A DNA stretch of 64,000 nucleotides from Hexactinellida sp. DTS-2022 (lineage: Eukaryota > Porifera > Hexactinellida), in NCBI GenBank assembly GCA_028753945.1, contig JAPNXP010000007.1, positions 3,410,001 to 3,474,000 of the forward strand. The letters are read 5' to 3'. A program made the translations under genes and the position numbers. The stretch's first letter is position 1. Each line of letters starts with the position of its first letter. Of the stretch, positions 1,581-52,077 are shown piece by piece. The notes below the pieces were generated by a model. It made no database searches. It was not told the DNA's origin and saw only the letters and a program-made list of their open reading frames with translations.

Positions 1581-1988
1581 AACCAGTAATATAATTGATA
1601 AATAAGTTAACCTTATTCTTGTAAATTACTCACTACTACTTCGTTCATTTCAATGTGTTGTTATTTGAGAGAGGATATTTACTAACTCATATTATATTTT
1701 CTGCATCGTTGGTACAGGCGCGCCTAAAATTATGGACCATTTCGCGGCGTACTTTTCCTCAAGTTACCATTTATAACTAGTACTTCATTTTGGGTTGTGA
1801 TTCGTTAATAATGCAATAATGTAATTTGTTTTGGAAAGTACGTATGTTAATTTTATTTAATTAAGTTATTCTCATTACTTTATTAGTTATCAATTATTAG
1901 TTAATTAATAGCTCAATAATTCTTAAGAGCTGGTTTCAGCTTCATTAAATAGTTATCTCGTTGGCTCAAATAATACTCATATTATAAA
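1580..1988. other. No feature recognised
   Basis: AT-rich sequence with scattered TTAATTA motifs. I see no ORF, repeat boundary or splice-like structure that I can support. Confidence 0.6.
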
Positions 1989-2452
1989 TCTATATTATTA
2001 AAACTCGATTGTTGTTTGTTTGTGTGTGTGTGTGTTTGTTTGTCCGGATTGTATTAAAGATGATAGAAACTAACTTCCAAATGTTATAATATGTAAACAA
2101 TTGTTATAATAGGTAAACAAGTATGCTGATCACGAATTTCGCATTTACAAATTTCTAATATGAATATTTATTGTTGTTGTTTACACAAATAGGTAAACAA
2201 ATAATGAAATTCAAAATCACCCTAGAAGTTAGCTTTCAACGGGTATTATAGGTAAACAAGTATGCTGAACCCGAATATCGCGTGTATAAATTTAGAACTT
2301 GAAAAATAAGTTAAAACTATGGAAATCTTATAAAGGGGTGTATATAACGTCCCTTTCTACCATTTTCCATGGCAGAAGGGTGAGGAGTTAGGCCGCACAG
2401 CGGCCGTTAACTTGAGGCGCAAAGCGACCGAGACCGAAGGGCTCGTAGTAAT
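1989..2452 (+). mobile_element. Helitron-like non-autonomous element, copy 1
   Basis: The left end TCTATATTATTAAAAC after an A is the classic Helitron 5' end. It is followed by a TG-rich tract, 'gtaaacaagtatgctgat' repeats, and a GC-richer 3' end with 'ggccgttaacttgagg' and 'gaccgaagggctcgta'. The same arrangement recurs at 36.9-37.3 kb and, 5'-truncated, at 56.6-57.0 kb. The three copies share the end up to about 'ggctcgta' and then diverge, which sets the 3' boundary. The usual CTRR 3' terminus is not clear, so this could be a Helitron variant. No coding sequence. Confidence 0.6.
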
Positions 2453-3333
2453 TGAAACCTGTTGGCTAGTAAAGTATACGTGATTAATTAATTAAATTGT
2501 ATACTATATATCTCAACTATATATAGCAATATGCAGCAATTCGATTTCAAAATTGTTGAGTAATACGTGTTGTATTGTATAACTGAGGAGCGAACGAGAA
2601 AAAATGTGAAAATTCAAACTAGACATTGGTGAAAGATCAAAGATGGAACTAGAACAAATGTTAATTAGACAACCATTAACAAAAGAGACACTTTATCGTG
2701 TGTATACGCTAGTGTATATGCACGAATATGAAAATAGTGATTTTCGTGCATATACGCTAGTGTGCATGCATGCAGGCTAGAAACTTAGTGTGCATGCATT
2801 CACACTAGCGTGCATGCATGCGCACTAATCTTGCGTACACGCTGCAACATTAATATTAGAAATGGTACTATTTGTGTTTATTATTACTATTAATTAAATT
2901 ATGAAAATCCAATCACCGTTCTCATTACGGCTAATACTAATTACGGGTTAGCAGGGCTGAGTTATGTTTACGACCTAGAGACGCATAAAGAACTTAGTAG
3001 TTCAATATACATAACATTAAATACAATTTGCCATCTTCTTGTGCATCCCTGGTACATCTACTGTCAGGCCATATATAGAGTAGGCTATGGGTATAGGCTA
3101 TACGTATAACACGTATTACATTATACGCATTATACGTAATACGTATACAATAAAAGACGTATTAAACAACTAGGCTTTTATTTAGAAGTAAATTTCTCGA
3201 ACAATAAAGATAAAATCAGGCAGTAATATGTTAGTTATTGTAGCCAAACAAAATGGTGACTGAGAAATAAGATAAGTTAGATATCGTGTTACTTTGGAAG
3301 TTTCATAAGCTTCCAGAACGTGTGCACTTGTAC
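2453..3333. other. Gene-free stretch with palindromic repeats
   Basis: Positions about 2700-2850 hold alternating inverted motifs around CGCTAGTGTGCATGCATG and end in 'cgctgcaaca', which resembles the style of the Ginger ends at 49.5-52 kb; no partner end was found. A 28-base string starting 'tgtcaggccatatata' at 3064 recurs at 13703. Positions about 3085-3160 are low-complexity TACGTAT repeats. No gene seen. Confidence 0.5.
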
Positions 3334-3761
3334 TAGGGATGCACCGGATCCACTTTTTTGGATCCGGCCGGATCCTGAATTTTCGGATCCGCTTGGAAAG
3401 AAAATACAGTTATATTAAGTTTGTAGTAATTGATATATGGTAAAGTAAAACTTCGTTAGTATGAAGACATTAAAATTGTCTCAATCTGTCAATCAGAGAT
3501 ATTTAATTAATTTATGTCTCCTATTACTTCATGAAAATTATTATAAATTTGAATTGGCGTAGAGTATGTCACTATTGAATAGTTTTTGTAAGTAATTAGA
3601 GGTTACTTGGATTAATAGAATCAATTAAATAGTTTATACACATACAGATTCGGATTCGGTGGATCCGGTAACCTCATCTCGGATCGGCCGGATCCTGGAT
3701 CCTCCACAAATGGGGAAATCCGGCCGGATCCGGAACCGGATCCAGGATCCGGTGCACCCTA
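3334..3761. mobile_element. hAT-type MITE with GGATCC-rich ends
   Basis: Terminal inverted repeats TAGGGATGCACCGGATCC (left) and its near-complement at the right end enclose 428 bases. The 8-base target duplication ACTTGTAC is exact at 3326-3333 and 3762-3769. Inverted GGATCCGGCC motifs fill both subterminal regions. There is no transposase, so it is non-autonomous. An 8-bp duplication with a TAGGG terminus is characteristic of hAT elements. Confidence 0.9.
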
Positions 3762-3900
3762 ACTTGTACCAAATTACGTTTTTGAAATTTCATGACTCAG
3801 TTACGTGCTACAATGACTTACAGCTATGTATACCATATGAAAGATGCAAAAGGTATTACAGCTATTATGGATTGCGGTGCTAGATATTACGTAGAGCTTA

Positions 3901-4253
3901 GGCCACATAAAATAAATTACTTGTTTATCATCCATATTTTTCGAGAAAATTGGGACGGCGGACGGGATTTTATTTTTATTTTTTATTTCTATTAATATGC
4001 AAATAACATCATCCTATGCCAAAAATTAATATAAATTTTTAATTTAATTAGAAAATAACATGACAATTCCAAATAATTAAAGTATGCTCTAAAATATAGA
4101 ACTTATTAAAAATTCATACATAGTAGGTACTTTACACAAGTTATTGCTTATATTCTGTACGATTAGGTTCATAAGATAATAATAAAATAGATCAGGGGTA
4201 GTTAAAATTGGGGCAGACGGGGATGATTAACAAGTCATTTATTTTATACGGCC
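3901..4253. mobile_element. PIF/Harbinger-like MITE
   Basis: The ends GGCCACATAAAATAAAT and its inverted counterpart (ATTTATTTTATACGGCC) are flanked by TTA on both sides (3898-3900 and 4254-4256). Subterminal inverted motifs such as TGTTTATCATCC are also shared. GGCC termini with a 3-base TWA duplication point to PIF/Harbinger, by inference. A related left end occurs at 17145. The 87-residue ORF at 4208-4471 runs out of the element and looks spurious. Confidence 0.65.
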
Positions 4254-4560
4254 TTATTGAGGAAATGCAAAAAAAACATGCGGAGGAGATGTTGAGGATG
4301 ATGAAAGAAACATGCGTAAGATCGATGAGCACAAAGAATTTCTGGACAAAAAAAAGGCACAAAGGGAGATTGAAAGAAAGGCACTGCGTAAAAACTAAGA
4401 CAATTAAAAAGACAAATAATAAGGTTGGAAGATATTGGTTCAGATTAATTAAGTGGGTTGTGGAATATTAAATTAAAATTGAAGTATGTATATTATGCTT
4501 TTTTTGTTTTGTTCGTTTTGTTTGCTTTGTTATTCATAAGATTAAAATAAAAATGTAATT
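4254..4560. other. Short spacer, no gene supported
   Basis: The lysine-rich 87-codon ORF running to 4471 is mostly A-rich sequence with no recognisable motif. I do not call it. Confidence 0.5.
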
Positions 4561-4562
4561 TA

Positions 4563-4678
4563 CTACTGTATTTCTCGGTCAATTATCCGATTCGGGCAAC
4601 CAATTATCCGATTGGGTCAACCAATTATCCGATTCGGGCAACCAATTATCCGATTGGGTCAACCAATTATCCGATCGG
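4563..4678 (+). repeat. Left terminal inverted repeat with five 21-bp motifs
   Basis: About 115 bases. The motif CAATTATCCGATT alternates between a 'CGGGCAAC' and a 'GGGTCAAC' tail. The right copy mirrors it. Repeated subterminal motifs are likely transposase binding sites. Confidence 0.85.
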
Positions 4679-4791
4679 AATTACTTTTGATTTTCATTGG
4701 TTTATCTATTTAGGATACTGGGTTGATTAGTATAAAACAAAGTAATACGAAATAAATATATTCCTAAATATTCAAATATTCATCATAAATT

Positions 4792-5907
4792 ATGGCTTCC
4801 AGTTCATACTATGCAGGACAACACTCTGCCACATCATCTACAGTTGCTATTTCACGAGGTGGAAGAGCAATTTCAAATGAATTACGGCAAAGACTTATCG
4901 ATGCCCATGAGTCGGGAGTAACCTATAAACAGATGACCAGATTGTTTGGCGTTAAGAAGGATACCGCTTACAGAATTTGTAGCACCAGACAATATTCTAC
5001 CAAACTTCGCGGTGGTCCAAGAGGAAAAAAGTTGGACGAGGATTCGAAAAGTCTTCTCTTAATTTCCATTGAAGCCCGTCCCGATATCACTCTTGGCGAG
5101 ATGAGAAATAAACTACTTCTCGAACGAGGGATAACTGTTTCGATATCTACGATCGCTCGGTGTCTTGAAGGATGCTTAATTACAGTAAAAAAACTTGAAT
5201 TACTTCCGAGTGTACGTAATTCACCCGCAAACAAAGATTGTAGAAGAACTCATGCTATATGGTTGCAAGAACAGCATGAAATAGGAGCAAGATTCTGTTA
5301 CGTTGACGAGTGTGGATTTGGCTTATATACCGCTCGGAATCGTGGTCGATCAATTCAAGGATTGCCAGCTCGAAGGGTTGCTGACAATCAACGAACTCCC
5401 CATGTCACTCTGATATGTGCTATCTGTCCAGGTGTTGGACTCGTCCATTCAAAGATCCTTTTCGGAGGTGCTAAACAAACACATTTTGATCAATTTATAA
5501 GTGAATTATTCCATCTCTCGTTTGGTTTGGCATTGGAACCAAGTAGCTCAGTTGACACGGCATTTATCGTACTTGACAACGCTCCTTGTCACCGTGGGAT
5601 TGAAAATAGACTTGAAGCTTCTATCCCTTCACACATCGAATTGAAACGCCTCCCTCCATACAGTTGCGAGTTGAATCCGATTGAGTTGTGCTTCCAAAGT
5701 CTAAAATCCTATATAAAACGAACTCTCAGCGCTCAAGGACCAATTATACCAATTGAGGGCCAAACTATGGTAAGTGCAAGGAGAGATAAACTATTGCAAT
5801 TATGCCCAAATGCTTTGGCTCAAATTACTCCAGCAACTTGCCTGAATTCGTTCTACCATGTATTGACAGCAACAGTTCCGAGAGCAATACGCCTTGAAAA
5901 TCTCTAG
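4792..5907 (+). CDS. Transposase, Tc1/IS630 (DDE_3-like) family
   Basis: A 371-residue protein that should cut and re-insert the surrounding element. Residues about 25-70 form a helix-turn-helix DNA-binding region with the pattern of homeodomain-like or paired-type domains. A second helical region follows at about 80-130. The catalytic core shows the triad D172 (YVDECGF), D262 (VLDNAPCHRG) and E298 (LPPYSCELNPIE), with 35 residues between the last two. The ATG was chosen because it opens the only long frame and lies about 115 bases inside the left terminal repeat. Length is normal for the family and no frameshift or stop is seen. The C-terminal 70 residues are less conserved and were not assigned. 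Confidence 0.93.
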   Translation: MASSSYYAGQHSATSSTVAISRGGRAISNELRQRLIDAHESGVTYKQMTRLFGVKKDTAYRICSTRQYSTKLRGGPRGKKLDEDSKSLLLISIEARPDITLGEMRNKLLLERGITVSISTIARCLEGCLITVKKLELLPSVRNSPANKDCRRTHAIWLQEQHEIGARFCYVDECGFGLYTARNRGRSIQGLPARRVADNQRTPHVTLICAICPGVGLVHSKILFGGAKQTHFDQFISELFHLSFGLALEPSSSVDTAFIVLDNAPCHRGIENRLEASIPSHIELKRLPPYSCELNPIELCFQSLKSYIKRTLSAQGPIIPIEGQTMVSARRDKLLQLCPNALAQITPATCLNSFYHVLTATVPRAIRLENL

Positions 5908-6016
5908 CAGCTACATTATTCCAATATATATATCCAATAAATCACTTTATCCTATATTAATTAACTGTATTCATTATCACTATTATATCAAATATATCAC
6001 TATAATTGTTGATTGC

Positions 6017-6133
6017 TCGAATCGGATAATTGGTTGACCCAATCGGATAATTGGTTGCCCGAATCGGATAATTGGTTGACCCAATCGGATAATTGGTTGC
6101 CCGAATCGGATAATTGACCGAGAAATACAGTAG
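6017..6133 (-). repeat. Right terminal inverted repeat with five 21-bp motifs
   Basis: Mirror image of the left end, with ATCGGATAATTG repeated at 21-base spacing near 6021, 6042, 6063, 6084 and 6105, ending in 'gaccgagaaatacag'. Confidence 0.85.
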
Positions 6134-6433
6134 TATTAATTAATGGTATTTTTTATTAAATAAATCTATAAGGGAAAATAAGTATGTATAGCTAGACTAG
6201 ATCCTGTCTTTTTGAAAGGCAAGTGGATTAGAGTTAAATCTTTTAATTATAAGAATTATAAATATATTGTATGTATTGAATCCCGGAAGTTTCGTCCCCG
6301 GAGATTTCGTCCCGGGGAATTTTCTTCCCCGGAGATTTCGTCCCCCGGAATTTCGTCCCCGGAATTTTTAATTTATTTAGAGAGTTAGATATGGTTTAAT
6401 TAATGAAATAAGTATATGAGGAATAATACAGTA

Positions 6434-8479
6434 TCAAAACTCAAAATTATATGCGATTCCCCTAAGATAAGTTGTTATATCCCGGTTCCCATAATCTCCA
6501 ACAAGTAACTGTATACGCTCATCTTGTTCAATAGACTTTATGCTATGTACCATTGTACTACCAGACTCCCACTTTATCAGTTTGGCTTCTTGTAGTGATT
6601 GTTCTCGTTGCAAGAATATGAAAAGCTTTGACACGCTTGGGTGCGAACAACCGATACTAGAATTAAATGCATTGTGCCATCCCTCAACAACATTATTAGT
6701 TCGAGGTAGTTGTTCACGTACTCTTTCATACATGTTCCAGATTCTGATAGGAAAGGGTGGGGTCCTTCTACTGTAATTAGGAAGTATTTTACCAATATAC
6801 TTATCTTCAAAATAAGTAACAACATGTAGAGCAGATTCTGGAAAATCTGCCATCAGAATAATGAAAGTCCACAACATCATGTTTAGGGATCGACCGGGGC
6901 CCCGGCCCCTGTCCCGGCAAGAAATTGCTACTTTTTCCCCGGCCCCGGCCCCGGCTATAAATACCTAAACTAGCCGGGGAATATTTAGGTTCCAAAAACA
7001 TATATTATAGCTGCATTGTGTAAGAATTTTATATGTTAACATTTCAAACACCCGGCAGAATAAAAATGCATCGTTTAATCGGAGAAATCCACCGGGATAC
7101 CGGGATAAATAATATTGAAATTAATGTATTTCTTAATAAATCACCTAATAACAGTATGTATTTGAATAAACTTGGCAGGAGGGATTTGTAAATGCATAAA
7201 AGCAGCAATTTGACATGTATGTCTCAGTGCCGGAGTAAGCGGTCAGGCACTTTTATCAAGTGTCAGGCCAATAGCCTGACTACTCTTACGTCACTATTTA
7301 GGCCAGTCATGGCTGACAACTTTATAACTGCTTCCGCCGACCATGTGTATGTATATTATTACGTTGGAAACGCAACAACTACTCTAAAAATTTTCTTTAT
7401 TGAGTATCAAGACTAACCTCTGTACCGGACCGGTCCCGGCCAAAAATATTCCAGCCCGGACCCGGCCCCGCCCCGGCAGAATTCTGCCCCCGGTCGATCC
7501 CTAATCATGTTCTGGCACAAAAGCAAGGCTGGTAAGCATCTTAAACTTCAGGAGGAATTCTCTATATTCTTGATAGATTGTTGTTAACCCCTCTGATTGT
7601 TTTTTCTGTATATTTTTTGAAGAGATGAAAGAAACAACCCGAAATTATAGCAACAAGTTTGTCCTCAAATGAATTTATTGCTGCTTTTTCGAAATCGGTC
7701 ATTATCGTGGAAGGGTTTAATTGTGGTTGTATTTCGAGGAGTTTAGTGAGAAGTCTATTGTAAGTAGAACCAGCTTTATCAGGTAGTAATGCATATACGC
7801 AAGGGTAGACGAATCCATCCTTCTCTGCATGAATGGTATACAACTGAAATAAATATTCTGGTACAACCTTGAAGGTTCCATCAGCATACCAAGTTTCAGA
7901 TTCTGTAAGAAGAGAGAAAAACTTGGGATTTGCAAAGATAATCATCCGATTGACGTCGCCATAACCAGAATCGAAAAGTAAAAATGGTTCTTCCTTAAGC
8001 GTCACTTTGTATTTTTCCGCTATGATTATTTCAGCAGCACAAGTAGGATTACCACAATTTTCTTCGGGTTTGCTTTTGTGCTTAAGGATTGTTCTCTTAA
8101 CAGATTCCAATAATTTAGGGAGTTGTGCAATACTTGAAGATCCCATTTGCCCAATATCATGTGATAGAATGACCCTTGTACTTTGTTCAGAATCAATTGA
8201 ACGTTCTTTTACTTTATTATAACCTCTAAGCATTTCGATTCGTACAGGGTTTGAACCATGGGCATTACTTGAATAGATGTCGTTTATCAGTGTCGGTTTG
8301 GTAATTTCATCTCCTCTCGAATGCATACGAGCTTTACACGTCCCCCGCTTTTTACATACCCACTGTTGTACGTCCAATGAGGACTTTGTCAATGTATACA
8401 CGAACCCTTGGAAAGTAGCTTTATCTTTACCCCTTATACTTTTAACCAATTCGATTTTGAGAGGAGCAGCGGCCATCAC
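6434..8479 (-). pseudogene. MULE transposase with FLYWCH finger, interrupted
   Basis: The N-terminal piece (8479-7562) starts with a FLYWCH-type zinc finger at residues about 8-75 (WVCKKRGTCKARMH). A MULE catalytic region follows, with WYADGTFKV, an IMTDFEKAA block carrying a catalytic-type Asp, and GCFFHLFK. A +1/-1 shift near 7575 leads into a second frame reading YREFLLKFKMLTSLAFVPE, the usual MULE continuation, up to 7512. The gene is then cut by the 620-base hAT MITE plus target duplication. A second frame change near the junction leads into the C-terminal piece (6880-6434), with FEDKYIGK and NNVVEGWHNAF. It cannot make a full protein as it stands. Confidence 0.9.
6884..7503. mobile_element. 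hAT-type MITE inserted in the MULE gene
   Basis: TIRs TAGGGATCGACCGGGG and its complement bound 620 bases. The 8-base duplication ATCATGTT is exact at 6876-6883 and 7504-7511. The ends are strikingly GC-rich (runs of GGCCCCGG) around an AT-rich core. No transposase. Removing it restores contiguity of the MULE coding region, which confirms the boundaries independently. Confidence 0.95.
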
Positions 8480-8928
8480 AATGTTAAGTTAACGAGAAGA
8501 TAATTCGTGGACTCTGATTGAAATTACTGAAACACTATCTTATTCTAAATATATGCATCCTTATATACTACGTGAGGTATTCACGGGTTATTTATTTTTG
8601 GCAATACAGTGGTCAGGAAGTTTACCTTTCACACCCAGAATATGACTAGTCACTAGTGTAAATAAAATAAATCTATTATATAATTTGCAAGACTAGTTTA
8701 GTTTCACTAAGTATAAAGGGTTTTTTAGTGGTATCATACTATTGTATTTTTCCTCATACCTATTTCATTAGTTAAACCATATCTACTCTCTAAAAATTTA
8801 AAATTCCTTGGTACGAAAATTCCGGGGACGAAAATTCCGGGGACGAAAATTCCCGGGGACGAAATATCCGGGACGAAATCTCCGGGGACGAAATTTCCGG
8901 GACGAAACTTGCGTTACCCGTATGTATT

Positions 8929-10789: not shown

Positions 10790-11166
10790 TAATAATTGCC
10801 TACTGTCAAGGGATTTAACTATTTTTGTGTTCTATACATGCGTGCAGGACTATTTAGTACATTTGTACAGGGGTTTTTAGTTTGGACTAAATTACTGATT
10901 GTGAGTCATTTCCAAAGAGATAAATTTGATTTATGTAAACCTAATAAATTTTAATAGCATTTTTCTTTTCCTGCCATGCTGATGTGATGTGTCACTCTAA
11001 TACTCTGGAGTCCTCAGGAGTGCACGGGTTGGGAGCCTGTGTAGGTGGCAGTCGGGGATAGACTTTAGGAAGAGTCAGACCCAGCTGTACGACTAGTAGC
11101 ACTGTATGGAGACATGGTCAGTACGGTGAGGCAGTTCTGGTATAGGAACGTCACGGCAGTCGCATG
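10790..11166. other. Unassigned GC-richer segment before the ribozyme motif
   Basis: From about 10980 the base composition rises compared with the surroundings and stays so to about 11230. No ORF with recognisable motifs is present. It may be the body of a small retroelement that carries the hammerhead-like motif at 11167-11215. Confidence 0.35.
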
Positions 11167-11215
11167 GTGGTCGAGGGTTGCCTCCTGATGAGTCCATGCA
11201 ACGGGACTAAACCAC
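11167..11215 (+). ncRNA. Type III hammerhead ribozyme-like fold, likely inactive
   Basis: All parts of a minimal hammerhead occur in order. Stem III 5' strand GTGG (11167-11170) is followed by T-C as the cleavage-site pair (predicted cut after C11172). Stem I is GAGG-GTTG-CCTC (11173-11184) and the core is CTGATGA (11185-11191). Stem II is GTCC with an 8-base loop and GGAC (11192-11207). TAAA stands where GAAA is expected (11208-11211), and the stem III 3' strand is CCAC (11212-11215). Only the first base of the GAAA box differs. That position is G12, which is important for catalysis, so the copy is probably inactive. Such ribozymes are known in animal satellites, retrozymes and Penelope-like elements. 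Stem III is short, as in satellite hammerheads that act as dimers. Confidence 0.62.
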
Positions 11216-11399
11216 TCACATACTATCCCTATGAATTGAAGTCGATCATAGCAACTAGTCATCACACTAGGTTGTGGGCTTCATCTCATAATATAGTCTG
11301 CATTGACAACATGAATGCATATGGTCTTAGTGTTATTCCTATTAGTACAGTACATAATGGGTATAATGATATTGGATATAGTGATATAATGGATATAGT

Positions 11400-12998
11400 C
11401 AGGCCCTACGAGAGGGGGGGGCAGACGGGGCAGTGCCCCGGGGCCCAGGGCTAAATAGGGGGCCCAGGGCTAGAGAAGGGGCAGGGCTAGATATGGACCT
11501 CGTGGCCTAGGGAGGCCCAAGATCTGGGTCATTAATGTCCTAAGTCCATGTATTTGATTATTATTGTTTCTGACTAGATCTATATTTGCATAGAGGCGTG
11601 AAATTCGAAATTTAAATGTATTATTATCTTTTGTCATCTTTCTAGTTCTTCACTTAATTTGAATATTTTAGAAATGGTAGTGAGAAATGTAAACATAATT
11701 ATGTAGAATTGAATTACATACAATAGCTTTTCTAAAATTAATTATGTACTACTACTTTATTAGTATTTTCTAATATCTTCTAACCACAAAATAAATTATA
11801 TAAATACTAAAGTCATTGGTATTATTCTAATTGTTTTGAAAAAGAATTCGACTGAAAATGCATAAATCTGGTGCTCAGAAAAGAAAAAAGAAAAGAGCGA
11901 GAGAAGAAAATGCAATGCAAGGTAGAACAACATTGTTCGAAATAGGTATTACATCTACTCTAGAACATAGTCCAAGCACAATTTCATCGGAGGCTCTAAA
12001 TCAAATCGGAGTTTCCCCTGAAATATCGTTAATTGCAGAAATTTTAGATGATGACTCTAATGAGTCAGAAATTTTACCAGAAAGTAATGGACAATCTATA
12101 GTTCGAGAAACTAACAGTGTGGAGGATGATTATGTTATAGAAGGAGTCCAAAAGATACTATCTACAGATAATACATTATTTGATATAGGTCTAGATATCG
12201 GAATGATTACTATCTTGTCAAATACAATAATAGATGAATATTTGTATATAACGTCATCATTGATCATGTAATCAGTGGTCTTACGAGAAGATTCAATACT
12301 GCAAATGAAATTTTGCAGACATTTGGATTTTTGTGGCTATATTTTGGCTTGAGTGAGGAAGAAATATGCCAAAGGTCAAACATTCTTGCAAATATTTACA
12401 AAGACGACATAAATGGTGAAGAATTGGGCAGAGAAATTGTTGATCTTAAGAGTATGATTCAAATTGCAAATTTCGGAAAAGAGCAAATGAACCCTTATGA
12501 ATTAATCAATGCAATTCACAAGTATAAACTGGAAAATATCCTTCCAAATATTAGTGTAGCTCTCAGAATTTTTCTCACAATCCCAGTAACAGTAGCCTCA
12601 GCAGAGAGATCTTTCAGTAAACTTAAACTTGTAAAAAATTATCTCAGAAGCACCATGTCACAAGATCGTATGGTTTCCTTGGCAAGATTGAGCATTGAAT
12701 CTGAATTGGCCAGAAAAATCGATTTTAGCAATGTCATAAAGATATTTGCTCATCAGAAAGCAAGAAAAGCAATGCTAAAACAATAGTTATTTTCTTCAAG
12801 CTCAATATAATTAATTAATAATTCATATACTAATACTATTTACTTTTTCATGTCTTAATAATCAATATACTCGATATGACGTAACTTTCGATAATATCTA
12901 ATTAATAAATGAGAGAAAGATTTGCTTAATGATAGTCAATTAGTAAGGGGCCCAGAATTACTCTGCCCCGAGGCAAATAATTTCTCTCGGCGGCCCTG
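11400..12998 (+). mobile_element. Internally deleted hAT element (ZMYM/TTF-type)
   Basis: The ends are inverted: CAGGCCCTACGAGAG on the left and the complement of CAGGGCCGCCGAGAG on the right. Both sides carry GC-rich 'gccccggggcccag'-like subterminal sequence. Between them lie an N-terminal and a C-terminal transposase piece in plus orientation. No matching 8-base duplication was found, so the copy is old or its flanks have changed. The GATATAGT motifs to its left are part of a small local repeat. Confidence 0.75.
11858..12786 (+). pseudogene. hAT transposase remnant, N- and C-terminal parts
   Basis: The first piece (11858-12271) opens with the basic start typical of ZMYM1/TTF-type hAT transposases (MHKSGAQKRKKKRAREEN). 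The second piece continues from about 12255 in another frame (VISGLTRRFNTANEILQTFG). It ends at 12786 with the hAT dimerisation domain, including VTVASAERSFSKLKLVKNYLR. The catalytic middle is missing. The family protein is several hundred residues longer, so this is a non-functional deletion derivative. The N-terminal piece is rich in acidic residues. Confidence 0.85.
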
Positions 12999-21911: not shown

Positions 21912-23497
21912 CTAAAGTGTCTCTAAAGATGTTTTCCATAGGAAAACACAAGAGTCATCTCCCCCAGTAGATACAAGATAGCAGTCATTATGAGTAAACC
22001 GTAAGTTAGTTACATGTGCAGAATGACCATGAAACTGAAGAAATGCAGGATTCCTTTGATCTACAGGAAAATTAAATAATTTCACTAAACCATAATCATC
22101 CCCTGTAGCAAGGATGTGTCCACGATTGGAGAGGTGAGAAATGTTTACATCTCCTGATTGAGCATCTGCAGGCACAATCCCAACAATATCAGGACCACTT
22201 AGACATGTCATTGTTGACCATACAATTTTTCCAATAACATCAATGTCAACTACAGGATTTGCATCACTAATCTGATAAATTAGACGTTGATATTGTATTG
22301 TAGTGATCTGGATATAATTAGAATCATTGGACCAATCAAGATTACCCACAAATCCTTTAAATCCTCGGCAAGTAGCATGTTTTATTACATGTGGGAGTTT
22401 GTAAATATCAACAAAATTTTTGGAACATGCAACAGCTAACATTTTTCCATCAGGTGAAAACCTTAGTAAGTTAATAGGTGAAGAATAATCCCTTTTCTTC
22501 TTTTTCACGGACTCTTTTTCTAATTCCCCATTTGACTTTAGTTCAAATAATGTGATCTGCCCATTGCAGAATCCAACAGCTAATGTATCTGCAACTTCAT
22601 TAATATCAAGACATTGAACAGGAGAAGGCAAATTCTCTAGTGTGCTAATTGTACGTTTACTTGATAAATCCCATGTTTTAATGCATGAATCGTGTGATCC
22701 AGTGATTGCAATCATTTTAGTTGGGTGCATAGCTAAACCCCAGAGCTCTCCATAACCATGACCCTGATTTAAGCATGTTTTAATTCCATTTTTAAATTTA
22801 AAAATTATACTATTACTGGTACCAATTATCATAACATCTTCTCTAAAGTCAATAGCTCTAATATCTGAAACATGCGACTTAGAAGCAATTTCTTGAATTG
22901 TAGTGCCTTCAATGGTAGTTAATTTCAAAACTATATCAACATCTGTTAAACCACGTGAACCACTCAATATTCCTTCAGGATGGTAACCTAATGCCCAGAT
23001 TGGCCCATTGTGCAGTTTAATTGAATTAACTAACAAAAGATCTTTGAAAATATAAACAAATCCACTTAAACTCCCAAATATTAAATTATCATTATTATAT
23101 TCCAAAACTGATAACATTGTTTCATTCGATGCATCAGCTCCCAACGATAATCGTTCAGAGATCAATTTGCTACCAGCAACTGCCCAATATTTGAGATGTG
23201 AGATTCCGCAAGTCACAAGTGACAGATTGTCAATTTGTGCTGTTTGTTTACTCCTTGGTGTATTAATGCACAACACCTGAAATATTCTGTAATGGCTGCC
23301 ATCAACACTAGAAATTAAAGTTCCTTCGGCCCAATTCCATACAGTAATCTTGTGAGAATTCTCTATACCAACTGAAGCAAGTAATTGGCCAGAACTCGAA
23401 AAAGAAAGTGAACATACACCTTTATTGTGGCAACCAGTTAGAATAGAGAGTGGGTCTTTATTGAAAACTTTCCATACATGTATTGCACCATCCTTAC
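21912..23497 (-). CDS. EML: EMAP-like (EML5/6-type) protein, terminal exon
   Basis: Last exon of a WD40 microtubule-associated protein. It starts after the acceptor TTCTACAG (AG at 23499-23498) with two bases that complete a Gly codon. It then reads KDGAIHVW and continues for 527 codons to the stop at 21912. About nine WD-type blade ends are visible (ITVWNW, LKYWAV, VYIFKD, IKTWDL, ITLFEL, VDIYKL, VKLFNF, VFLWK). The final GHSAHVTNLRF...GGDDSCVFLWK is the signature close of EMAP units. EML proteins fold as tandem beta-propellers and bind microtubules. The open frame upstream of 23497 (starting MQLDNLHNN) is intron, not coding. The whole last propeller lies in one exon. Confidence 0.93.
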
Positions 23498-23633
23498 CTG
23501 TAGAATTATTATGTAAATTATCTAATTGCAAATATAAATTAATGAAAATTGAATTTTTGCTAAACTCTATCTAGTAAATGCAATTTAAAATGGCATGTAA
23601 AATCTCAAATAGATAGATATAATATTACAACCA

Positions 23634-28310: not shown

Positions 28311-29010
28311 TAGGGTGTGGTCTAAGAACTCTATTCTTTGTAACCAAAGAGACACTCGTAATTTCGTAGCTGCAGATTCGTATTCTGTAGCACTGAAGAA
28401 CACGCTAGAGGAGGCTTATGTTATTTCAAAAGTACGAGAAAATGTTAAAGTATCATCGATATATGGTAAACTCTGGGGAACATCTTTCAAGGTCAAGTAA
28501 CTTATCCTTTGGTAGGTAGTGAGTGTTTTGTATAAAACAAAGGGATGACACTGAATACAAACTGTCCCTTCCGGCGATAAAAATGCTATGCTCGCCCTAT
28601 CACATTCTGCAATCGGAACGCTCCAATATGCACTTGCACTTTCCAGAGTCGAGAAATATTCGCTGCCTTGGAGTTTGTAACGTATATCCTTAGTGCTCGA
28701 TAGTCGATCGCAAAAATGAGTGAGCCATCTTACTTTTGAACGAGAATCACCCTATTAACCCATGGAGAGTTCGACGGACGGATTATTATATTCTCAAGCA
28801 TCTGCTCTATTTGAACCCTTATCTCCCCTATGTACGTGGCCATACTCTTATGTAACTTGACTTTACGGGAAGCGCTTCGCTATATCTATTTGGTGCTTCT
28901 TTGGGCTTACTGCGAATACGTCTGAAAACTCAGCGAGGAGGGCAATCATCACTGAATTTTGGTGCCGTATCATGTCCAGGTTGATATTTCATTCCATTTT
29001 CCCTCATTGT

Positions 29011-49332: not shown

Positions 49333-49528
49333 ATATGAATTAAAGTCAATAGGTCGTCAACCGATTCAGCGTGTTATTAACGGTTTTTATACATAAATCA
49401 GCCATCTCAGTATTGAAATTATTCTATAGTATACTGATACTATAGATTAGCCTACAACTACCGCTTGATAATGACTGCTATTATTATTATTATAATAGTT
49501 GTTTTAGGTAATGTGTGTTTGATATAAG

Positions 49529-49707
49529 TGTTGCAGTGTATTAGAAACTTCTGTGTGTTCACGAACATACATGTGTATTCACGAATACACAATGTTTGCT
49601 GTGTGTTCGCGAACACACAGCTTCAAACTTAGTGTATTAGAAACGTCATTTAGTTTCTATGTTTGTTACTATAATATCTATTTATGGGTAGCTAATAAAT
49701 TCGTACT
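49529..49707 (+). repeat. Ginger left TIR
   Basis: 179 bases. Contains two 20-base palindromic units of the TGTGTRTTCACGAAYAYACA type and a separate TGTGTTCGCGAACACACA palindrome. Confidence 0.92.
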
Positions 49708-49974
49708 AGGCGATGAAATTAAATAAATAAATTACACCTTAGGTTACCACCCATTAAGTATATCCTTGGATCTCAGCTGATAGTAACTATAGGCAATACA
49801 TAAATTCGTGATTTATTTACTATAAATCATAAAAACTTGATCGAGGAAATAGTCGGTTAATTAATTAACCTAAATAATGGCGAAACAAGATTTCATAGAA
49901 AGAATCTGTCTCTTCCAGTTACGAACCGGTCTGAGTTATTCTCATCAGTTGATATCCAGGATAAAATTACTTTC

Positions 49975-51780
49975 ATGTCAGACCCCGAACCACAGGAGCA
50001 TTCTTCTAAGCTTCGATGGCAGAGACTCCGTATTAGGTTCAAAATCTTGACTTATCAAAGTGTAAAGGTCCTATACCTCCGTAACAAGGATTCAAGTATG
50101 CCTGATAAACGAGTCCTGTCAATTGATGAGATGTATGATGTTCTTCTGCGTATACATCTAGAGCAGAACCACGTGAGGAGGATTGGCATGTATAAGCGGG
50201 TGTCTCAGGAGTTCCATGGCATCACAGAGAAAGCTTGTAACATCTTCTTACAAGACTGTGAAGAGTGCCATCTAAGAAAAGCAAAGAAAAACATAAAGTC
50301 GCTTGTAGTAAAGCCAATATCTTCTACTGGATTCCTGACTCGTTGTCAGGTAGACCTAATCGACTTCAGAGACATGTCAGAGGAACACAACAAGTCTGAG
50401 TCTGGTATTCCGTATCGTTGGCTGCTGGTGTATCAGGATCACTTCACAAAATTCATCCGTTTACGTCCTCTGAAGAATAAGTGTGCAGAAGAGGTAGCTA
50501 ATGTGGTAGAGGATATATTCTGTGAACTTGGCATTCCTCATATTCTGCAAAGCGATAACGGGAGAGAATTCAAGAACAACATCCTATACTCTCTTATTAA
50601 TGAAAATTGGCCGAACACGAAAGTTCTACATGGAAAACCAAGACATCCAGAAAGTCAAGGCTCTGTAGAGCGTGCAAACCGTGATATCAAAAACGCACTG
50701 GCTTCTAAGATGAGGGATAACTCAAACGACTTGTGTTGGGTAAAGTATGTTAGACGTGTCCAACTCGAAAAGAATACAACATACCATTCGACCATTGGTA
50801 TGACTCCATTTGAAGCCCTATATAATCGTAAGCCCTCTTTTGGTCTCTCTGACCTTGGAATACCCAGCGAACTAGCTTCACAAATTCACGATGAGGGGGA
50901 TTTGGAAAGAGTTATTAACGATATAAATAACCCTCCTCAATTAGAAACAACTTCAAGCAATAAACTTCCATCTGACGCCAACATTTCCTCAAGTGACATT
51001 ATTGAGGACACAAATCTAACTCCTCTGCATGAAGTTGAGCTACCATTCCAAGAGCCTAGGATTCGGGATGCATATCTCGATGATATATCACAACCACCTC
51101 CTGAAGGTATCAATGTGTTCTCTCCACAAGCTCCGACAAGTTCTACTGCAGGCGATCTCGACTGTATTAAATGTGGCCTTGAAACTACCGGTGCACACAA
51201 GTGTTATAGATGTTTGCGTCCTATTCACTTCATTTGTGGTCGTCAAGGTGGGGAAGAGGGATACGGAAGCAGCGTTTGGTGTCCGAGATGTGACATAGAG
51301 GTGAATAGAGAACAACACGAAGTTGTGAGAGTTGGTATCAAAAGGAAGCAGGATGTGTTACACCAGCGTTTGATTAGTTCTTCTGCCAAGAGCTATGTAC
51401 CTGCACTCGTTGGGGATAATGTGACAATTCCTATCGAGAGACCTGATAAAATGAACTCTCTTGGGCAGCAGAATGTTTTAGTTGTCATAACTGGTCTTAG
51501 TGACGATGTTTACACAATCGGAACAAAGTACGGCTCACTAGGTTCCAGCTACACAAGGAACCAGTTTGATATCTGTACTTCAAATAGATTCCTCAGTCCA
51601 TCCGATATCCCAGAAGTTACAGTCTCACAAACAACTGTTATGAGGAATTCTTCCTTAGGCTTAGAAGAAGGTTCTTTTTGCAGATATTCCAACTGCAAAA
51701 CGAACAGATGTCCTTGTAGAAAATCTAATCGCACTTGTAATACCAAGTGTCATCTTGGAAGAAAGTGCTTCAATAAGTAA
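49975..51780 (+). CDS. Ginger integrase-like transposase with zinc fingers
   Basis: A 601-residue DDE integrase. An HHCC zinc-binding domain has H61, H66, C95 and C98. The catalytic core has D127 (CQVDLID), D194 (LQSDNGREF) and E232 (QGSVERANRD), giving 37 residues between the last two. The LQSDNGREF and HGKPRHPESQGSVERA blocks match KRBA2/Ginger integrases. A linker rich in Ser/Pro/acidic residues spans 300-395. A PHD-like Cys/His finger lies at about C397-C439 (CIKCG, HKCYRCLRPIHFICG, CPRC). A cysteine-rich CXC/tesmin-like tail covers 569-599 (CRYSNCKTNRCPCRK). No frameshift. The first in-frame ATG after the left TIR was chosen; a shorter start at M42 is possible. Confidence 0.94.
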   Translation: MSDPEPQEHSSKLRWQRLRIRFKILTYQSVKVLYLRNKDSSMPDKRVLSIDEMYDVLLRIHLEQNHVRRIGMYKRVSQEFHGITEKACNIFLQDCEECHLRKAKKNIKSLVVKPISSTGFLTRCQVDLIDFRDMSEEHNKSESGIPYRWLLVYQDHFTKFIRLRPLKNKCAEEVANVVEDIFCELGIPHILQSDNGREFKNNILYSLINENWPNTKVLHGKPRHPESQGSVERANRDIKNALASKMRDNSNDLCWVKYVRRVQLEKNTTYHSTIGMTPFEALYNRKPSFGLSDLGIPSELASQIHDEGDLERVINDINNPPQLETTSSNKLPSDANISSSDIIEDTNLTPLHEVELPFQEPRIRDAYLDDISQPPPEGINVFSPQAPTSSTAGDLDCIKCGLETTGAHKCYRCLRPIHFICGRQGGEEGYGSSVWCPRCDIEVNREQHEVVRVGIKRKQDVLHQRLISSSAKSYVPALVGDNVTIPIERPDKMNSLGQQNVLVVITGLSDDVYTIGTKYGSLGSSYTRNQFDICTSNRFLSPSDIPEVTVSQTTVMRNSSLGLEEGSFCRYSNCKTNRCPCRKSNRTCNTKCHLGRKCFNK

Positions 51781-51854
51781 CAGATCCACTTAGTCCAGTC
51801 TTATTTATTACTACGTGTATTTAGTATTTACGGGTAATACCTTCTTTTACACGA

Positions 51855-52073
51855 AGTACGAATTTATTAGCTACCCATAAATAGATATTATAGTAACAAA
51901 CATAGAAACTAAATGACGTTTCTAATACACTAAGTTTGAAGCTGTGTGTTCGCGAACACACAGCAAACATTGTGTATTCGTGAATACACATGTGTGTTCG
52001 TGAATACACATGTGTGTTCGTGAATACACATGTGTGTTCGTGAACACACAGAAGTTTCTAATACACTGCAACA
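51855..52073 (-). repeat. Ginger right TIR
   Basis: 219 bases, complementary to the left TIR but with four rather than two copies of the 20-base unit. The short minus ORFs full of TH and CIHE repeats here are artefacts of this array. Confidence 0.92.
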
Positions 52074-52077
52074 TAAG

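Follow-up and report, generated by a model that had tools for sequence, protein, structure and literature searches.

Hammerhead-bearing repeats in a hexactinellid sponge genome resemble the LTR retrozymes of plants

The LTR retrozymes of plants carry a hammerhead ribozyme in LTRs of about 300-400 bp, placed on either side of a non-coding centre, and are flanked by 4-bp target duplications. Their PPT and LTR ends are Ty3/gypsy-like, and many of them are solo LTRs (Cervera et al. 2016, PMC4918200). The same account proposes that solo, full or multimeric cDNA is made from a circular template. The hammerhead of these plant elements is of type III (PMC7229834). The non-LTR retrozymes of animals are described as having type I hammerheads and a tandem arrangement, without LTR, PBS or PPT; their target duplications, when present, are longer than 4 bp (Cervera and de la Pena 2020, PMC7229834). 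Type III hammerheads have been described in animals as well, in HDV-like circular RNAs of toads and termites (PMC7761336). In the open-access literature, as far as its text was available and with PMC10045372, PMC10886601 and PMC11721086 included, no LTR-type or type III retrozyme is reported from an animal genome.

The window considered here is the whole stretch of DNA that was analysed, 64,000 nucleotides from Hexactinellida sp. DTS-2022 (contig JAPNXP010000007.1, positions 3,410,001 to 3,474,000 of the forward strand). A sequence-only reading had placed a near-complete type III hammerhead with a mutated G12 at 11167-11215, and this is where a match to the Rfam model RF00008 (Hammerhead_3) was found. 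In a permissive scan of 10900-11400 (501 bases), positions 11165-11217 of the plus strand scored 41.8 bits (E 8.4e-8) and covered all of model positions 1-54. The gathering cut-off is 48.5 bits, so the copy lies below it, and the whole window gave no match at the Rfam gathering threshold. On this score and on comparison with 71 other copies we regard 11165-11217 as a damaged type III hammerhead ribozyme. Its layout, read from the plus strand, agrees with the earlier claim that stems, core and cleavage site fit the hammerhead fold. Stem III is formed by 11167-11171 and 11211-11215, stem I by 11173-11176 and 11181-11184, and stem II by 11192-11195 and 11204-11207. The predicted cleavage-site base C17, 3' of which intact copies would be expected to be cut, is at 11172; the CTGATGA core occupies 11185-11191, and the T that replaces G12 at 11208 is followed by AAA (11209-11211). 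That T is indeed the sole departure in the core, but it is not the sole lesion: compared with the family, stem I has lost one base of its length and stem II its fifth pair. When 63 bases containing the window ribozyme are folded as a single strand, the hammerhead is not favoured and another structure is preferred (z -0.64).

The genome (112,398,167 bases in 18 contigs) was searched for relatives with an intact GAAA. From 12,319 first-look candidates for RF00008, 68 places were scored and 64 of these exceeded the gathering cut-off; in a control, 7 of 14 other genomes gave matches at E up to 10 and none gave one over the cut-off. A pattern of the 24-base ribozyme core, with up to three mismatches, has 353 sites in the genome and none in the reversed control, and the 100 matches listed all have no mismatch. 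Ribozymes were also parsed from the fetched loci with a pattern that permitted any base at G12. This gave 72 rows, reduced to 71 when one, recognisable by its shorter stem I as the window copy, was dropped as misparsed. GAAAC is present in all 71 and the full core in 64 of them. An intact type III family is present in this genome, and the window copy itself lies below the RF00008 cut-off; with relatives that retain GAAA, the proposal that it is a dead copy of a genomic family is borne out. Self-cleavage of the family copies is predicted from their sequence. The type I model RF00163 found no match in the genome, nor did it in the controls, and the exact 24-base pattern found none in collections of viral contigs or of genome contigs.

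Covariation was assessed on 61 distinct rows of equal length, 10 of the 71 copies being left out as duplicates or as copies of other length. In shuffles, which do not correct for relatedness among copies, the values for stem II (97.4% paired, 17 double-change cells) were reached in 0 of 500 runs for either measure, and those for stem III (89.6% paired, 10 double-change cells) in 1 and 2 of 500. The compensatory changes anticipated in the stems of relatives are thus seen in stems II and III and not in stem I, where no double-sided changes occur among the 61 rows.

The ribozyme lies inside a repeat unit of about 325 bp with TG...CA ends. An all-against-all comparison of 54 ribozyme loci gives the unit of the best-preserved group limits of about -201 and +124 relative to the cleavage triplet, with a left end TGTGACGAG (TGTTATAG in others) and a right end CTCATAACA. 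Copies are up to 99-100% identical, and other subfamilies are shorter or truncated. Four of the 54 loci were without a 3' end call; in 14 of the remaining 50 the flanking 4 bases match, when shuffled pairing gives a mean of 1.16 and a maximum of 7 (2000 runs). Examples of duplications in near-identical copies are GCAT, TTAG, CTAT, TTAT and AGTA. Two observations count against taking these units for the LTRs of a retrozyme. Of the 50 loci whose 3' end was called, 36, including the window copy, show no exact duplication, and the ends are like short inverted repeats, TGTTATGAG and CTCATAACA, such as some DNA transposons have.

It is scarcely credible that the window holds a lone chance look-alike of a hammerhead, a satellite repeat or a Penelope-like relic. 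Taken alone, the window copy does score below the gathering value; against this are the 64 scored places above the cut-off, the 353 core sites, the LTR ends and the target duplications, and the earlier judgement that a chance match is unlikely agrees with them. Moreover, the ribozyme is of type III and not the type I of Penelope-like elements, and in a self-comparison of 50 of the 58 loci direct repeats span it in only five (L018, L023, L035, L036 and L052, the first two being one place). The sequence-only reading had offered a retrozyme, a satellite or a Penelope-like family, and of these the retrozyme is supported. Satellite and Penelope-like origins, and with them an animal non-LTR retrozyme, were rejected in view of interspersed copies, 4-bp duplications, LTR ends and ribozyme type.

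What remains in the window appears to be a decayed solo LTR of this family, at 10980-11293 on the plus strand, judging by identity to a copy on contig C11, the position of the 3' end and GC content. A GC-richer segment at 10980-11330 had been pointed out, and GC is indeed 50.0% in 10980-11293 as against 36.7% and 34.7% in the 600-base flanks on either side. It had also been said that this host segment of about 340 bases had no other explanation, which no longer applies if it is an LTR. The 3' end is well defined, CTCATAATA at 11293, and lies at +124 from GTC, a position shared with many other copies; the 5' end can be placed only roughly, at about 10980-10990. The nearest match (C11:13435067-13435363) has 87% identity across 292 query bases, and no target duplication was found in the flanks of the window LTR. 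Because of this divergence and the lack of a matching duplication, we read the window copy as an old, dead solo LTR.

Other elements of the window are a Tc1/IS630-like transposase frame (4789-5907), a FLYWCH-MULE frame (7562-8488), an EML-type beta-propeller gene (21912-23570) and a gypsy-like RT fragment (28416-28751, recognised by eye, with no Pfam match). There is also a Ginger2-like DNA transposon (49525-52077), flanked by TAAG duplications and bearing terminal inverted repeats (TGTTGCAGTGTATTAG...). In its open frame of 639 aa Znf_SCAND3 is over the cut-off and rve below it; a copy on C11 has 96% protein identity. The Ets domain, which is not known outside animals, has 7 matches in the genome; like the EML-type gene and the transposons, these indicate an animal host. 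The Wnt family had no match in the genome, nor in the controls.

In fuller copies of the element a first LTR is followed by a short non-coding stretch and a purine tract and then by a second LTR, and the spacing of the ribozymes is 486 or 385 bases. Few copies retain the whole internal part: used as a query, that of locus L052 gave 16 matches, and the three that are of full length belong to the L052 cluster; that of L059 gave 5 matches. At L052 one pair of CTAT duplications encloses two oppositely directed LTR-internal-LTR units of 325-161-325, and the space between them holds a fragment of an LTR and a fifth LTR that has an internal copy of its own. The last bases of the internal part are GGCTAAAGGGAAGGTGA, with the LTR directly after, and the junction of purine tract and LTR start reads CTAAAGGGAAGGTGA then TGTGACGAG. 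At L059 the corresponding junction is AACAAGGGGGGTGA then TGTTATAG. In L059 and L060 the ribozymes are 385 bases apart, the second repeat is preceded by AACAAGGGGGGTGA or AACAAGGGGGTTGA, and the outer duplications are CTAC (L059) and ATAG (L060). Related internal sequence and junctions are seen by eye in L072, L074 and L075.

The first repeat of both L059 and L060 is without the last ~95 LTR bases and without the hairpin described below. Such an asymmetry, kept in two insertions, is not predicted by canonical LTR copying and so counts against the reading as an LTR retrozyme. A comparison of the split repeats was aimed at DNA copying versus passage through RNA. Identical positions number 226/231 and 225/231 within the loci, 228/231 between loci on the same side and 225/231 across; three differences part the first from the second repeats, and the remaining ones are private.

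Gypsy elements are a likely source of enzymes. Their RNase H domains are common, with at least 150 genome matches (150 of 150 of those scored), and three elements were compared with the retrozyme. L082 has a 175-bp LTR (TG to CA), TATC duplications, TTAGGGAAGGGTGA before TGTCATGATC and an open frame of 1446 aa; L083 has a 177-bp LTR, GTAG duplications, AGGAAGGGGGAATGA before TGTTATACG and an open frame of 1447 aa. By eye, the junction of purine tract and LTR start in the retrozyme resembles that in these two of the three. The third, L081, also has a purine tract, but its LTR starts differently (TATAG by repeat match) and no self-complement is seen. In L082 and L083 no TGG-type site is found directly after the LTR; instead, exact complements of the element's own LTR (near position 104), 15 and 11 nt long, come right after it, which we take to be a mark of self-priming elements. 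From two of three elements, then, a gypsy is a candidate helper of the retrozyme. One gypsy-related locus, L084 (C11:9118500-9126800), contains at 1829-6419 a palindrome of 4.6 kb and 99% identity in self-comparison, with a gypsy RNase H match in each arm. Equal scores at C11:4806549/4810728 and at C1:8560772/8566884 suggest further inverted gypsy pairs of this kind.

Given the ribozyme family, the LTR ends, the duplications, the gypsy-like junction and the non-coding centre, we consider the family to be, most probably, an LTR-type retrozyme with a type III ribozyme in an animal host. Its life cycle might be as follows. A transcript spanning two LTRs would be cut by both ribozymes, and the resulting monomer of 486 nt (or 385 nt) would be closed into a circle. 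The Ty3/gypsy enzyme set would copy the circle and insert the product with 4-bp target duplications. Copying that starts at the LTR 3' end and reaches the purine tract once would yield a solo LTR, and a second round an LTR-internal-LTR copy. Strong folding is computed for two predicted circles (z -6.91 and -4.87). Cleavage in vivo, circular RNA and help from a gypsy are what we infer for this element.

Alternatively, the elements could be MITEs moved by an integrase-like transposase of the Ginger2 type, the hammerhead being a passenger. Ginger2 DNA transposons are described as having TGTNR ends and 4-bp target duplications (PMC2836005), a description into which our elements fit; the window holds a Ginger2-like element whose 639-aa frame is open, and both inverted and asymmetric copies have moved as units. 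However, the ends of Ginger2 elements here, TGTTGCAGTG or TGTTGCAGTC (window, L077 and L080), share only TGTNR with the hammerhead element, their terminal sequence being otherwise different; Ginger2 encodes a transposase, and the 24-base core is present within six mismatches in none of the five loci with Ginger2 relatives (L076-L080). A looser core pattern was matched in L076, L079 and the Ginger2 region of the window. The two lie side by side at L071 (C10:1232600-1235800), where a truncated Ginger2 gene lies between a shortened hammerhead-element end with hairpin and a full hammerhead element. The right end of Ginger2 is still inside this locus, by eye, and L071 looks chimeric. Ginger2 as helper, on L071 and the five relatives, is unproven. 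The reading as MITEs would leave the gypsy-like junction of purine tract and LTR unexplained. We therefore judge this alternative improbable and retain the LTR retrozyme.

As to the priming of the LTR retrozyme, no TGG-type tRNA primer site is found directly after its LTR. In six loci (L006, L012, L052, L072, L073 and L074) the internal sequence that follows a complete LTR end starts instead with a hairpin, the 3' arm of which is continued by the reverse complement of the LTR end. By an automatic rule, 13 of 76 distinct LTR 3' ends in the fetched loci are followed by such a hairpin, some inverted pairs contributing both of their sides to the 13. The other ends include solo ends, some false calls in the ribozyme, and hairpins that escaped the rule because they are damaged or longer (L048, L064, L066 and L069). 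For a comparison of the arms we used 13 loci, one hairpin each, nine called by the rule and four (L026, L048, L066 and L074) picked by eye; the asymmetric or double joints of L064, L065 and L069 led us to omit these. In the 11 distinct arm pairs 93.9% of cells are paired, as against a mean of 80.0% and a maximum of 86.1% in shuffles, and double-change cells number 21, where shuffles reach at most 13; in inverted copies, though, the copying of one arm from the other may suffice for such complementarity.

The hairpin is also found at the centre of several inverted units. Seven inverted units have two readable LTR 5'-type outer ends; L063, L064, L068, L069 and L073, each with a truncated or broken arm, are not counted. 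In five of the seven the outer 4 bases match (L026 CGTA, L052 CTAT, L062 ATAC, L065 ATAT and L072 ATAC), and in L012 and L066 they do not. Three of the units, L026, L062 and L066, are simply LTR-hairpin-LTR, with matching outer duplications in two; L052 includes such a joint, the joint of L065 is rearranged, L072 turns back within the second LTR, and L012 links two subfamilies via part of the internal region. The units with matching outer duplications most likely existed before insertion. Head-to-head inverted copies in L067 and L042 are centred elsewhere in the LTR; together with the turn in L072 they indicate that turning points other than the hairpin are also used. L058 (C11) and L067 (C4) have inverted 3' ends of the hammerhead element with the same flanking bases, perhaps a larger duplication.

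How might the inverted units have arisen? Hairpins are known to promote fold-back in DNA. It is a real possibility, short of probable, that the LTR retrozyme is primed by a tRNA or another RNA end and that its inverted units come from DNA fold-back or host repair. The gypsy-bearing 4.6-kb palindrome of L084, at 99% identity, would agree with this, as would the use of more than one turning point (L067 and L042 elsewhere in the LTR, L072 within it). Fold-back after insertion fits less well with duplications that flank five of seven units as wholes, by which most were formed beforehand, and with the spacer in L026, L052 and L062, which is the complete hairpin that also follows a non-inverted LTR in L052.

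The other suggestion, which we make tentatively, is that reverse transcription of retrozyme RNA is primed by the hairpin, because a hairpin, and no recognised tRNA site, follows the LTR and inverted LTR units are inserted as wholes. Lying directly after the LTR, and with a 3' arm that extends into the complement of the LTR end, the hairpin would prime synthesis, and copying back from it would produce inverted LTR units that are then inserted whole. Quite possibly, the hairpin would supply the 3' end, the cDNA would be joined to its template by the loop, and the tail-to-tail LTR units would be fossils of this process, integrated by the gypsy integrase through their two identical LTR 5' ends. 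Hairpin priming on RNA would simply account for the LTR-hairpin-LTR form.

Priming without a tRNA, as suggested here, has parallels in other LTR elements. GalEa is an autonomous element of the Copia group. In self-priming LTR elements the primer is the RNA 5' end, whereas the complement in the retrozyme sits in its own downstream hairpin arm. Tf1, Tf2, Maggy and Skippy are named as self-priming LTR elements in PMC6934838; in the retrozyme no tRNA primer site was recognised, and the gypsies L082 and L083 show complementarity between LTR and leader. For biv-TRIM the same source gives no clear tRNA primer site and notes hairpins, and for GalEa a hairpin has been proposed as the primer site (PMC6934838). 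Both are animal LTR elements, as ours would be; the word ribozyme occurs 0 times in that paper.

With the HDV-like circular RNAs (PMC7761336) the family has the type III hammerhead in common, but those are described as RNA agents in transcriptomes and these are genomic LTR elements. Animal non-LTR retrozymes (PMC7229834) are likewise non-autonomous, hammerhead-bearing and found in animal hosts, with circles given as ~170-400 nt; the present elements differ in their type III ribozyme, LTRs, interspersed copies and 4-bp duplications. With the plant LTR retrozymes, as far as PMC4918200 and PMC7229834 describe them, they share ribozyme type, LTR size, 4-bp duplications, PPT, gypsy-like ends and solo LTRs. 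They differ from them in the animal host, in an internal part of 161 bp (L052) and a predicted circle of 486 or 385 nt as against ~700 in plants, in having a hairpin and no recognised tRNA-Met primer site, and in the inverted units inserted as wholes. It may be that these insertions physically record how first-strand synthesis starts on a circular RNA without a free end, and since copies are 99-100% alike, circularisation, helper use and priming are open to test in this genome. If our reading is correct, the division between plant LTR, type III retrozymes and animal non-LTR, type I retrozymes is broken by this numerous animal family of LTR type with type III ribozymes, which raises the question of whether this plan arose twice or crossed kingdoms.
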